Positions 19,690 to 43,530 of a DNA stretch of 64,000 nt are shown here, piece after piece. The DNA is from an uncultured Pseudodesulfovibrio sp. (GTDB taxonomy: Bacteria > Desulfobacterota > Desulfovibrionia > Desulfovibrionales > Desulfovibrionaceae): positions 134,001-198,000 of the forward strand of contig NZ_OY761823.1 in the NCBI RefSeq assembly GCF_963664965.1, read 5' to 3'. The position numbers were made by a program, and so were the translations under genes. Under the pieces are notes generated by a model that saw only the letters and a program-made list of their open reading frames with translations, had not been told where the DNA came from and did not search any database. Every line of letters starts with the position of its first letter. The first letter of the stretch is position 1.

Positions 19690-22107
<2,418 letters not shown>

Positions 22108-25205: not shown

Positions 25206-27041
25206 ATGGAAAAAACTAATGATGTCGTCGAATCCCCCGACATGGAAATGAATTTTGCCGATGCTCTTGATGAGTATCTGAATTCCGATTTCGGGGATCT
25301 GGACGAGGGCACCATCGTTGCTGGTGAAGTCGTCAAGGTCGACAAGGACTATGTCCTCGTTGATGTGAATTTCAAGTCCGAAGGACAGATTCCCATCATG
25401 GAATTCACCGAGGCTGACGGCACTGTCGCAGTCAAGGTCGGTGAGAAGGTCGATGTTTTCGTCGCCCGCAAGAACGAAGCCGAAGGCACCATCTACTTGT
25501 CCCGTGACAAGGCCAAGCGGATGCAGCTTTTTGATAAACTGGAAGAAGTGCAGGAAAAAGACGGCGAAGTCGTCGGCCGCATCATCCGCCGCATCAAGGG
25601 CGGTTACACCGTCGATCTCGGCGGCGTGGAAGCATTCCTGCCCGGTTCCCACGTTGATCTGCGCCCGGTCCCCGACATGGACGCTCTGGTCAACCAGGAA
25701 TTCGACTTCAAGATTCTCAAGATCAACCGCCGCCGCAGCAACGTCATCGTTTCCCGCCGCGTACTTCTCGAAGAGATGCGTAGCGAACAGCGCGACAAGC
25801 TGCTCGGCACCCTCGAAGACGGCCAGGTCGTCACCGGTAAGGTCAAGAACATCACCGAATACGGCGTGTTCATCGATCTCGGCGGCCTCGACGGTCTCCT
25901 CCACATCACCGACATGTCCTGGAAGCGCATCAAGCATCCCAAGGAAATGGTCCAGCTCGGCGACGATCTGGAACTGAAGATCCTCTCCTTCGACCGCGAA
26001 GCACAGAAGGTCTCCCTTGGTCTCAAGCAGCTCGTCCCCGATCCGTGGGAGAACATCGCTGAGAAGTACCCCCAGGATTCCAAGTTCACCGGTACCATCA
26101 CCAATCTCGCCGACTACGGCGCATTCGTGGAACTGGAAAACGGCGTCGAAGGTCTGGTTCACATCTCCGAGATGTCCTGGACCCGCAAGCTCCGTCATCC
26201 TTCCCAGATGGTGAAGGTCGGCGAAGAAGTCGAAGTCATCGTGCTCGGCGTCGATCCCGACAAGAAGCGCATCTCCCTCGGCATGAAGCAGATCTCCCCG
26301 AACCCGTGGGATGTCGTGGCCGAGAAGTACCCCGAGGGCACCGTCCTCGAAGGCGCTATCAAGAACATCACCGAATTCGGCGTGTTCATCGGCATCGAGG
26401 AAGGCATCGACGGCCTCATCCACGTTTCCGACATCTCCTGGACCAAGAAAATCCGTCATCCTTCGGAAGTCTACAAGTCCGGCGACGCCGTTCAGGCCAA
26501 GGTCCTCACCGTGGACAAGGAAAACGAGAAGTTCACCCTCGGCGTGAAGCAGCTCACCGAAGACCCGTGGACCCAGGTCCCGGCCAAGTACCCCGTGGGT
26601 CAGCTGATCAACGGTACCGTCACCAACATCACTGACTTCGGTCTGTTTGTTGAGGTCGAGGAAGGCATCGAAGGTCTGGTTCACGTTTCCGAGATCAGCC
26701 GCAAGAAGATCAAGTCCCCCTCCGAGATGTTCAAGGAAGGCGACACCATCGAAGCCAAGGTCATCCACGTCTCCGCTGATGAACGCCGTCTCGGCCTGTC
26801 CATCAAGCAGACCAAGGAAGAGCCTGCACGCGGTGGCGGCAAGTCCAAGAGCTTCGGCGGCGGTGCTGCCGGCGAGTCCACAGGTTCCACCCTTGGTGAC
26901 CTGCTCCGCGAAAAGCTCGAAGAAGCTGCCGGTGACGCTCTCGACAACCCTGTCGAAGAAGTCGTTGAAACCGAAGCTCCCGCAGAAGCCCCGGTCGAAG
27001 AGGCCGCAGCTCCCGTCGAGGAGTCCGAAGAAACCAAGTAG
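25206..27041 (+). CDS. rpsA: 30S ribosomal protein S1
   Basis: This 611-residue RNA-binding protein delivers mRNA to the 30S subunit. Six tandem S1 (OB-fold) domains of about 70-85 residues are visible, recurring as G.V..I..YG.F[IV]...G..GL[VL]H[IV]..[MI]SW. The last four are the most alike, for example GKVKNITEYGVFIDLGGLDG and GTITNLADYGAFVELENGVE. The C-terminal tail is a low-complexity acidic stretch rich in Glu, Ala and Pro. GGAGGT precedes the ATG. sppA follows 9 bp later, so the two share a transcript. Confidence 0.97.
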   Translation: MEKTNDVVESPDMEMNFADALDEYLNSDFGDLDEGTIVAGEVVKVDKDYVLVDVNFKSEGQIPIMEFTEADGTVAVKVGEKVDVFVARKNEAEGTIYLSRDKAKRMQLFDKLEEVQEKDGEVVGRIIRRIKGGYTVDLGGVEAFLPGSHVDLRPVPDMDALVNQEFDFKILKINRRRSNVIVSRRVLLEEMRSEQRDKLLGTLEDGQVVTGKVKNITEYGVFIDLGGLDGLLHITDMSWKRIKHPKEMVQLGDDLELKILSFDREAQKVSLGLKQLVPDPWENIAEKYPQDSKFTGTITNLADYGAFVELENGVEGLVHISEMSWTRKLRHPSQMVKVGEEVEVIVLGVDPDKKRISLGMKQISPNPWDVVAEKYPEGTVLEGAIKNITEFGVFIGIEEGIDGLIHVSDISWTKKIRHPSEVYKSGDAVQAKVLTVDKENEKFTLGVKQLTEDPWTQVPAKYPVGQLINGTVTNITDFGLFVEVEEGIEGLVHVSEISRKKIKSPSEMFKEGDTIEAKVIHVSADERRLGLSIKQTKEEPARGGGKSKSFGGGAAGESTGSTLGDLLREKLEEAAGDALDNPVEEVVETEAPAEAPVEEAAAPVEESEETK

Positions 27042-27982: not shown

Positions 27983-28036
27983 TTTCAACAAGACAGGCCC
28001 TGGAAGTTTGAACTTCCAGGGCCTGTCTTGTTGAAA
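27983..28036. terminator. 26-bp perfect palindrome between convergent genes
   Basis: A perfect inverted repeat with arms 27983-28008 and 28011-28036 and only 2 nt between them ends in AAA/TTT. It sits between the 3' ends of sppA (plus) and the HD-GYP gene (minus) and probably serves as a bidirectional terminator, although no long U tract follows. Confidence 0.75.
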
Positions 28037-37039: not shown

Positions 37040-37372
37040 CTAGCAGCCGCAGCCGCCGGAGGAACAACCGCCGGAAGAGCAGCCGCAACCGCCGCCCATG
37101 CCGGGGATTTCCTTTTCGCTTTCAAGAGAAAAGCCGTACTCTGTCATATCGATGGTCACCACGCCGGTGGCCTCAGCCAGTTCTTCGTGGATGAGAAAGG
37201 TGAAATCGCCCTTCTCAACACTTTTGTCGCCGTCACGGGCTTCATCAAGCGCCAGGGACAGGCGCGGGCCGGAACACCCGCCATCAGCCAGATGAATCCG
37301 GATGGGCTGGGTTTCCTTGTCTGCGAAATATGAAGTCAGTTCCTGCTGTGCGGATTCTGTTACGTTAATCAT
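37040..37372 (-). CDS. HesB/IscA-like protein, cysteine form
   Basis: This 110-residue protein is related to A-type iron-sulfur carriers. It has the conserved Cys in LADGGCSGPRLSLALDE and a Gly/Cys-rich tail (GGGCGCSSGGCSSGGCGC) in place of the usual CGCGxSF end. It aligns along its length with the adjacent selenocysteine protein: same start (TEAAQEQL versus TESAQQEL), same TYYGF versus TEYGF, same tail style. A redox, cluster or selenium-related role is possible. It lies about 120 bp downstream of its paralogue, each with its own terminator. Confidence 0.85.
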   Translation of the reverse strand: MINVTESAQQELTSYFADKETQPIRIHLADGGCSGPRLSLALDEARDGDKSVEKGDFTFLIHEELAEATGVVTIDMTEYGFSLESEKEIPGMGGGCGCSSGGCSSGGCGC

Positions 37373-37440
37373 GATTACTCCTGAGTGTTAATGTTCTACA
37401 AACTATAAGTAGTAATTATTACCTGTCTAGCCCCAGTTGC

Positions 37441-37473
37441 AAAAAAAGGCGGCACCCCGTGTGGAGTGCCGCC
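37441..37473 (-). terminator. Terminator of HesB-like selenoprotein gene
   Basis: On the minus strand an 11-bp stem of GGCGGCACTCC and GGGGTGCCGCC (one G-T pair) with a 4-nt loop (37473-37448) is followed by seven T residues (37447-37441). It lies 24 bp after the stop. Confidence 0.93.
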
Positions 37474-37496
37474 TATCGTGTTCGGTATATGGCTGA

Positions 37497-37823
37497 TTAG
37501 CAGGAGCAGGAACCGCTGCTGCAAGAGCCGCCGTCGCAGCCGCCGCCACCGCCGCCGACCGGATTTTCCGATTCGACAACGAAACCGTAGTAGGTCATAT
37601 CGATCTTGATCTTGCCGGTCTGAGCCTGCAATTCTTTTTCGATCAGGAAGGTGAAACCACCTGCCTCGCACACTTCGTCTTTATCATTAGGCTCATCCAG
37701 AGCCAGGGTCAGGCGCGGGCCTGCTCATCCGCCCGCAGCGAGATACACCCGGACAGGGGATGCTTCCTTGTCCTGGAAGTAGCCTTTGAGCTGCTCCTGG
37801 GCAGCTTCAGTAACTTCAAACAT
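37497..37823 (-). CDS. HesB-like selenoprotein (UGA decoded as Sec33)
   Basis: Reading from ATG 37823, behind TAGGAGG, gives MFEVTEAAQEQLKGYFQDKE, then an in-frame TGA at codon 33 (37727-37725), then 75 further codons to TAA at 37497. The flanks read LAAGG-U-AGPRLTLALDEP, and the paralogue at 37040 has Cys at exactly this place (LADGGCSGPRLSLALDE). The frame after TGA stays fully coding, ending in a Gly/Cys-rich tail with GGSCSSGSCSC. HesB-like proteins are a known bacterial selenoprotein family. A bacterial SECIS-like hairpin follows the TGA. Total 108 residues including Sec. SelA, SelB and SelC genes are not in the window. Confidence 0.92.
37690..37727 (-). promoter_or_regulatory. Bacterial SECIS element candidate
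   Basis: On the minus strand, 25 nt after the TGA (37727-37725), GGCTC (37704-37700) pairs with GAGCC (37694-37690) around the loop TGGAT. The loop position (within the 16-37 nt window) and a G among its first two loop bases fit the bacterial SECIS consensus. A second small hairpin, CAGGC-CCGC-GCCTG, lies nearer the TGA. Confidence 0.75.
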
Positions 37824-37987
37824 GAGATTGCCTCCTATTTATGGTCGGGAAAGGAACAGGTAAGATCAAAGTACCCCTTTGTCAAACTGAAATTGACAGT
37901 TTCCCGCCCATCGATATTGACCGCCCTTGGGGGATGGGATAATTCGAGACATTGTACTTTAGCCCAAAGCGCATGCGAGGCATAAAA

Positions 37988-39684: not shown

Positions 39685-39713
39685 TTTTTTTGAAAGAAGA
39701 AGAGAAAAGGAAG

Positions 39714-39741
39714 GGCCACCCGAAGACGGGTGGCCTTTTTT
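39714..39741 (+). terminator. Terminator of pyrR operon
   Basis: A 9-bp perfect stem, GGCCACCCG with CGGGTGGCC, has a 4-nt AAGA loop and is followed by six T residues. Confidence 0.95.
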
Positions 39742-39889
39742 CGTGAGACGAAAGGCGAAAAGGCAGAAAGCCTGTCGCTCTCGCTCCTTCCATGCCCTCC
39801 CGGCGGGGTCCTTTCTTTTTCCAAAGCAGAAAAGAAAGAACGAAAGAAACTGCTTTTGTTCCTAGCTTCACCGCCTTGTATCTTCGGAG

Positions 39890-40233
39890 CCAAGAATCTG
39901 ATCAAACCAGGCCGCTCCCGAATCCAGTCGCCGGGGACGGCTCCGGGATTCGTTAGAGCCGCGGCTTCCGGTTTGTCAGCTTCTAGGTTCCGAAGCTAAG
40001 GGCTGGTGCCGGTCTTCGTGCGGAAATAAGAATGGAAGGCAAGCAGGGAAACAAAAGACGGGTTTTCGTTGCCGTACTTGCCTTTCGCTCCCTTAACAAC
40101 CGAAGTGCCCCAATGAGCCAATCAGACCTCACTGGTCCTAGAAGCTGACCAAACAATGGCTGCGGCTTTTTCGAATCACGGAGCCGCTTCGGCGACTTGA
40201 TTCGGGAGCAGCTTGTTTGGATCAGATTCTTGG
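39890..40233. repeat. Long imperfect inverted repeat (two ~97-bp arms)
   Basis: The arm at 39890-39987 and the arm at 40137-40233 are inverted copies. Both outer ends read CCAAGAATCTGATC and both inner ends read TCAGCTTCTAGG when oriented alike. By eye roughly three quarters of positions match, with small indels. Each arm also contains its own palindromic core around GAATC...GATTCG. About 150 bp lie between. No transposase is present. A MITE-like or REP-doublet origin is likely. Confidence 0.75.
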
Positions 40234-40279
40234 ACCGGTGAGAGTCCGGCGAGTAAATTAAGGTAAAGCCGAGCTTTTT

Positions 40280-40313
40280 GGTACTTTTTGGGGCGGCCCA
40301 GCCAAAAAGTACC
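40280..40313. repeat. Perfect 12-bp inverted repeat
   Basis: GGTACTTTTTGG (40280-40291) and CCAAAAAGTACC (40302-40313) are separated by the 10-nt GC-rich sequence GGCGGCCCAG. It could be a terminator-like hairpin or part of the surrounding repeat cluster. Confidence 0.6.
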
Positions 40314-40361
40314 GCCGTCCGCGCAGGACATGAAAGGAGCGTCAGCGACTGGATTTCTGTC

Positions 40362-40396
40362 TTTTGCCTTTTGCCTTTTGCCTTTTGCCTTTTGTC
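40362..40396. repeat. Heptanucleotide tandem repeat (TTTTGCC)
   Basis: There are four perfect TTTTGCC units from 40362 to 40389 and a fifth with one change (TTTTGTC) to 40396. It lies about 140 bp upstream of the LytTR gene, outside any gene I accept. Confidence 0.8.
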
Positions 40397-40536
40397 TTTC
40401 ATGCCTTTAACGCCATGAAGTCACGCCCCCTCTCTCCCTTTTATTCCAAAAACTTGCACACCTCCCCCATTGACTGATAGGACTTCAGACAGAGAAAAGG
40501 AAAACCTGTTACCGATCCAAAGGCGCACTCACACTC

Positions 40537-43447: not shown

Positions 43448-43530
43448 TCGCCTCCGGCGGCCAGAGGAAGGGGGGAAGGGAGCACCCCCCTTAAAAGGGG
43501 GGTGCTCCCTTCCCCCCTTCCTCTGGACTC
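43448..43530 (+). repeat. GCCTCCGGCGGCC repeat copy 1, with 32-bp perfect palindrome
   Basis: GCCTCCGGCGGCC at 43450-43462 leads into a perfect palindrome with arms 43461-43492 and 43495-43526 and a 2-nt centre. The arms are purine-rich on one side (G-run, AAGGG, then GCAC). GGACTCC follows. It lies 11 bp after the acs stop and probably also ends that transcript. Confidence 0.8.

Follow-up and report, generated by a model that had tools for sequence, protein, structure and literature searches.

A HesB-like gene whose frame is interrupted by one TGA, followed on the same strand by a cysteine-containing paralogue, lies on the minus strand of the window analysed here, a stretch of 64,000 nucleotides from an uncultured Pseudodesulfovibrio sp., a sulfate-reducing bacterium (contig NZ_OY761823.1, positions 134,001 to 198,000 of the forward strand). 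Coordinates are given in Table 1. The initial annotation had proposed a HesB-like selenoprotein with a single in-frame TGA at codon 33, a ribosome-binding site before the start, a SECIS-like hairpin 25 nt past the TGA and a terminator after the gene, and had left the strand unstated; this reading is supported, and each element was located on the minus strand. Reading of the interval on the plus strand yielded no family-like protein and was rejected. The claims of an adjacent paralogue with cysteine at the position of the TGA and of homology to the end of the frame were also borne out, the latter by a match to positions 1–99 of the 101 in the curated profile NF038090. With the standard code the frame does stop at codon 33; the predicted loss of the gene by standard calling need not follow, as a curated model exists.

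Table 1. Features of the Sec gene and of its Cys paralogue, in window coordinates.
Feature	Position	Strand	Remarks
HesB-like selenoprotein gene	37497..37823	minus	ATG at 37823, TAA ending at 37497; 108 codons + stop; Sec33
In-frame TGA, Sec codon 33	37725..37727	minus	frame reading; same column in 81/81 TGA-bearing genes
SECIS apical stem-loop GGCUC-UGGAU-GAGCC, codons 40–45	37690..37704	minus	UGA-to-loop spacing 25 nt
C-terminal tail, Gly/Ser/Cys-rich, residues 90–108	37500..37556	minus	pLDDT <50 from residue 92
Ribosome-binding site AGGAGG	37831..37836	minus	7 nt before ATG
Likely −35 box TTGACA of Sec gene	37880..37885	minus	conserved TTTGACAA element
Intrinsic terminator of Sec gene	37447..37474	minus	12 pairs + T run; between Sec gene and paralogue
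Cys33 paralogue, 110 aa, same family	37040..37372	minus	downstream of Sec gene, same strand; Cys33 = TGT
Promoter-like site TAGACA-16-TATAGT before Cys paralogue	37402..37429	minus	consensus match only

The AGGAGG of the Sec gene was recognized by eye in 10/10 same-genus upstream regions, and TTTGACAA was present upstream of the Sec gene in all ten aligned same-genus regions, window included. A promoter consensus scan returned 3 promoter-like sites with 0.7 expected, and did not pick up the likely −35 box of the Sec gene. An inverted repeat, TGTCA-N9-TGACA, over this box was taken as chance; among the 133 members scanned (see below) it was found only at the Sec gene of the window. The Cys paralogue is 57% identical to the Sec protein over 91 residues, and the promoter-like site before it suggests that it may be transcribed separately.

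The Sec protein scored 117.9 bits and the Cys paralogue 106.7 bits against NF038090 (IscA_HesB_Se; cut-off 85), and the Sec protein is a member of this family, with no difference seen. Both proteins passed Pfam PF01521 when searched singly (34.2 bits for the Sec protein, cut-off 26.3). The genome-wide search with PF01521 gave no match at E 0.001, and NF038090 and TIGR00049 were therefore used for the genome searches. HesB-like selenoproteins have been known as a kind since 2006–2007, and the gene at 37497–37823 belongs to a described family, as the initial annotation had held: they were listed in 2006, including Desulfovibrio vulgaris (PMC1794560, Table 3), and DVU_1382 of D. vulgaris was given in 2007 as a HesB family gene with in-frame TGA (PMC1914089), both articles being cited from excerpts. 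DVU_1382, from a related bacterium, is likened to the Sec gene by description only, the two descriptions being the same; the excerpt is silent on any tandem Cys twin. For an archaeal HesB-like relative, selenoprotein status was shown by mutagenesis and 75Se labelling, its function being described as not clear in the excerpted text of PMC11097638. The Sec protein shares UxGP at Sec with the HesB-like protein of TIGR01911 (HesB_rel_seleno; motif from the excerpt of PMC13188914) and matches that profile weakly, at 37.9 bits, below the family cut-off of 66.35.

The nearest named relatives by Sec protein were from Pseudodesulfovibrio and other Desulfovibrionaceae, own-genome records possibly being omitted. 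A phage origin was rejected, with no match among 50,697 phage records; in viral contigs, searched for close relatives only, 8 stretches fitted a pattern and 0 encoded a relative.

Conservation around the TGA and the SECIS hairpin

NF038090 was searched against 149 genomes of the same family and gave a match in at least 139; among the matches listed, one-TGA and TGA-free rows stood side by side in many genomes. From 80 stretches around TGA-bearing matches, together with the window, 133 members were obtained, 81 with TGA and 52 without; the stretches were picked for having a TGA, and the 81 is not a frequency. Of the TGA-bearing genes, 62 (window included) belonged to the family and 19 to other families within the phylum. 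In all of them the TGA occupied one alignment column, at the Cys of a conserved GGC-GP motif, with G31 in 78 and G32, G35 and P36 in 81/81. TGA-free members carried at this column Cys (44), Ser (3) or Gln, Ile, Glu, Asp and Ala (1 each). In four relatives (L086, L089, L095, L110) a second TGA, past the Cys-rich tail, seems to serve the gene as its true stop; both TGA meanings would there sit in one gene.

Among ten same-genus Sec genes, dN/dS (ratio of means) was 0.145 for codons 2–32 and 0.145 for codons 34–90, from 39 and 44 usable pairs of 45, respectively (42 of 45 in a third comparison). The values being equal, the protein after the TGA is therefore under the same selection as the protein before it.

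The hairpin has a 5-nt loop with G at loop position 2 and a 5-bp stem, and its energy is −7.6 kcal/mol as a 15-mer and −8.8 as a 17-mer with one flanking base per side. The genome, of 3.87 Mb, contains the core 15-mer, GGCTCTGGAYGAGCC, only once, at the Sec gene. Published bacterial rules, as given in the excerpt of PMC13188914, are a loop of 3–9 nt, a stem of 4–16 bp, G in the first two loop positions, a distance of 16–37 nt from the UGA and an energy of at most −7.5 kcal/mol; the hairpin falls within all of these limits. They are the published constraints of bSECISearch, for which the initial annotation had called, and were applied by hand. The hairpin lies inside the coding frame, whereas archaeal SECIS elements are mostly in the 3′ UTR (PMC13188914, excerpt). 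Another hairpin, CAGGC-CCGC-GCCUG, predicted immediately past the TGA, was missing from the family consensus structure and was discarded.

Codon usage within the hairpin was compared between the 62 family Sec copies and family Cys copies, the latter limited to the 38 scoring >110. Sec copies had GCT at codon 41 in 61, CTG at codon 42 in 62 and GAG at codon 44 in 61, corresponding to identical-codon fractions of 0.97–1.00, as against 0.43, 0.36 and 0.50 at codons 41, 42 and 44 of the Cys copies. Codon 43, in the loop, was not frozen (0.68 in Sec copies vs 0.77 in Cys copies). When six pairs were scored over the 81 sequences (80 distinct), 95.2% of cells were paired; the outermost pair was unpaired in 23 of 80, and without it every cell pairs. 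Slid controls gave 17–52%. Two pairs were changed on both sides (4 cells vs 0.1 expected by shuffling), one from C-G to U-A in three sequences of a single clade (f13), the other from U-A to C-G in a single species; pair types were no higher than in shuffles (5 vs 5.1). The covariation thus appears real but thin, with few independent changes. By folding energy alone, four Sec-gene stretches gave z of −0.25, −1.12, −1.49 and −2.26, within or near the shuffle range, and it is the cross-species comparison, not folding energy, that places the hairpin beyond chance. Codon freeze and covariation together mark it as a SECIS conserved by selection, and the frozen codons offer a simple signature for finding the HesB-like Sec gene.

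From these comparisons the UGA at codon 33 is very probably read as selenocysteine, the gene being a genuine IscA/HesB-type bacterial selenoprotein gene. Hairpins of this kind are established as recruiting SelB; the one at codons 40–45 would recruit SelB with Sec-tRNA, and the ribosome would insert Sec at the UGA. Were the TGA a true stop, the locus would be a decayed copy of the paralogue or would encode a 32-residue peptide only, as the end of the frame in the standard code and the Cys copy next door would allow; this is highly improbable, given purifying selection as strong after the TGA as before it, its single column in 81 genes, the freezing of SECIS codons in TGA copies only and the stops in the matches listed, which were none or one TGA, with no TAA or TAG. 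The paralogue has TGT at the site, and a TGA arising from a Cys codon by sequencing or assembly error, a doubt that the initial annotation had raised in naming TGT or TGC as refuting, might be supposed; the chance of this is negligible, as the TGA recurs in nine further genomes of the genus and, counting the window, stands in one column in 81 genes.

Decoding machinery and Sec/Cys pairs

The four genes for selenocysteine decoding that the initial annotation had proposed to look for were all present in the genome, each over its curated cut-off by profile search: selA (536.1 bits), selB (392 bits), selC (tRNA-Sec, 80.7 bits, gathering score 47) and selD (320.6 bits). The selD gene is itself interrupted by one in-frame TGA, which falls in AAGUAAK; the excerpted table of PMC13188914 gives UxxK as the motif of selenophosphate synthetase selenoproteins.

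Co-occurrence was counted in 61 genomes of the family, each at least 97% complete, with a Sec or Cys copy defined as a match of at least 80 bits; the 17 weakest rows (at most 50.8 bits), some of them with a TGA (those in G001, G024, G026, G041, G065, G069 and G073), were left out. A TGA copy was present in 55/61 genomes, a TGA-free copy in 51/61 and both in 46/61. selB was over its cut-off in 58/61, including 55/55 genomes with a TGA copy. The three selB-less genomes (G006, G099, G035) had TGA-free members only, and G001, G026 and G042 had selB without a TGA copy of 80 bits. The chance of all 3 selB-less genomes falling among the 6 without a TGA copy is 20 in 35,990, assuming independent genomes, which these genomes are not. 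In one genome, G016, the family is represented by two distinct Sec copies (L101, L123).

In 41/55 genomes with a TGA copy, a TGA-free member was located on the same strand less than 1 kb away. Any TGA-free row entered the adjacency count, which gave 44 adjacent pairs, the TGA-free copy lying downstream of the Sec gene in 32 of them and upstream of it in 12, with gaps of 85–636 nt between matches. A report of a tandem Sec/Cys HesB pair was not found in the literature searched, a limited collection. Since 12/44 partners lie upstream and 8/52 TGA-free members are without the Cys, not every partner is a simple backup. Among TGA-free neighbours of a Sec gene, the key Cys is replaced by Ser in L099, L100 and L102 (G038, G085, G066) and by Asp, Ala or Glu in L092, L096 and L113; these copies, clustered with a Sec gene, would be degenerate or repurposed.

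A maximum-likelihood tree was calculated for 123 of the 133 members. Many Sec and Cys copies clustered within a genus or a handful of related genera, the supported branches forced at least 10 Sec/Cys label changes, and the Sec copies formed one group in 0/200 bootstrap trees; the tree has 92 columns, 42 of its 120 inner branches are open and the bootstrap had not settled. In the genus of the window, nine Cys copies from eight genomes formed one group (support 100/100), as did 9/10 Sec copies (92/92), with the tenth genome, G148, apart, and the pair in this genus looks older than the sampled species. The grouping by genus would mean either that Cys twins arose many times or that gene conversion kept the pairs alike. 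In L076 the Cys copy still has a SECIS-like hairpin, with 1 mismatch to the core and 5 of 5 pairs. Such hairpins in some Cys copies are consistent with these having descended from a Sec copy or exchanged sequence with one.

Predicted structure and possible function

The structure of the Sec protein was predicted with a mean pLDDT of 81.6 (64 sequences). The best solved matches to the model were IscA with [2Fe-2S] (1x0g), IscA (1r94, 1s98) and SufA (2d2a), with TM-scores (query) of 0.55–0.69 to IscA/SufA chains and E of 2e-6 to 2e-4, and the predicted fold is accordingly of the IscA type. The part after residue 85 contained at least 3 Cys in 80/81 Sec copies; pLDDT is <50 from residue 92 onwards. 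The Sec protein shares a Pfam family (PF01521) and, in the model, the fold with the A-type carriers IscA, SufA and ErpA; it differs from them in having Sec for the conserved Cys and a Gly/Cys-rich tail, and it scores far below their equivalog cut-offs, at 18.7 bits for IscA (150.6), 22.9 for SufA (136.2) and 22.8 for ErpA (117). We take Sec33 to correspond to Cys35 of E. coli IscA, a cysteine that binds the cluster, and the Cys-rich tail to be unlike IscA.

The Sec gene and the Cys paralogue gave the only matches to TIGR00049 at E <0.05 in the genome, neither over the cut-off, and a genome search with the IscA model TIGR02011 found nothing; the two are the only HesB/IscA-type proteins detected in the genome by these searches. 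A-type carriers are absent from many Deltaproteobacteria according to the excerpted text of a phylogenomic paper (PMC2682760). Both proteins are therefore proposed to take the part of A-type carriers here, the one with selenium and the other free of it. For the Sec protein the preferred reading is an Fe-S carrier of the A type in which a selenolate serves as ligand: its likeliest task would be carriage of an Fe-S cluster or iron, for which Sec33 and the tail cysteines may act jointly as ligands; we put the chances of this role at about even. It rests on the fold and on distant similarity, because both proteins fall below the cut-offs for IscA, SufA, ErpA and TIGR00049. The Cys33 paralogue, past the terminator and with its own promoter-like site, might supply a selenium-independent version of the same activity, which we consider a little short of an even prospect.

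Neighbouring genes were compared in 20 genomes, with rough counts, the ORF caller having also picked antisense frames. A recurrent neighbour lay upstream in opposite orientation (7/20, in one cluster), which from its appearance we take to be a PyrR-type phosphoribosyltransferase, and another recurrent gene, presumably AMP-ligase-like, lay downstream or nearby (7/20). No operon partner pointing to a pathway was seen in the 20 neighbourhoods.

Selenocysteine might instead be inserted into a protein that is not a carrier, namely a redox enzyme or else a binder of metals or metalloids, acting through its nucleophilic Sec together with the Cys-rich tail. According to a review, homologues of thiol oxidoreductases are numerous among prokaryotic selenoproteins, some of which are tied to heavy-metal resistance (PMC13188914, excerpt), and disruption of a HesB-like selenoprotein in Methanococcus maripaludis left nitrogen fixation unimpaired (PMC11097638, excerpt). 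The scores under the IscA, SufA and ErpA cut-offs point the same way, as does the Cys-rich tail, which is unlike IscA; the predicted fold, however, is IscA-like, and the Sec motif is UxGP, not UxxC, CxxU or TxxU. We regard such a role as a real but doubtful candidate. For the pair, the Cys paralogue could have a function of its own and not serve as a backup, the genus-specific pairs having come from gene conversion and not from repeated duplication. The grouping of many pairs by genus with the forced label changes would agree with this, as would the hairpin of the L076 Cys copy, such as would persist after recent conversion or after a recent switch from Sec to Cys; conversion and repeated duplication nevertheless fit the tree alike, with its few columns and many open branches, and we think this account rather unlikely. 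The fullest form of the carrier proposal, in which Sec33 would be a natural selenolate ligand to an Fe-S cluster or iron in an A-type carrier and the repeatedly built tandem Cys twin would be used in its place according to selenium supply, is speculative and on present evidence improbable; if true, one locus would hold the same cluster carrier in a selenium-loaded and a selenium-free version. What HesB-like selenoproteins do is still described as unclear (PMC11097638, excerpt), and with the Sec/Cys tandem pair the contribution of selenium to an IscA-type fold could be tested cleanly in one organism.

Other repeats were noted in the window. An intergenic repeat of about 700 bases (39687–40410) is partly palindromic, 39890–40233 matching its own reverse complement at 69%, and stretches 72–85% alike lie beside selD elsewhere in the genome (L018 2486–3606). 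Internal direct repeats of about 66–72% identity, perhaps duplicated domains, occur at 25831–26765 and 21406–21736, and near-perfect palindromes, 96–97% self-complementary, at 43461–43526 (66 bases) and 27983–28036 (54 bases).
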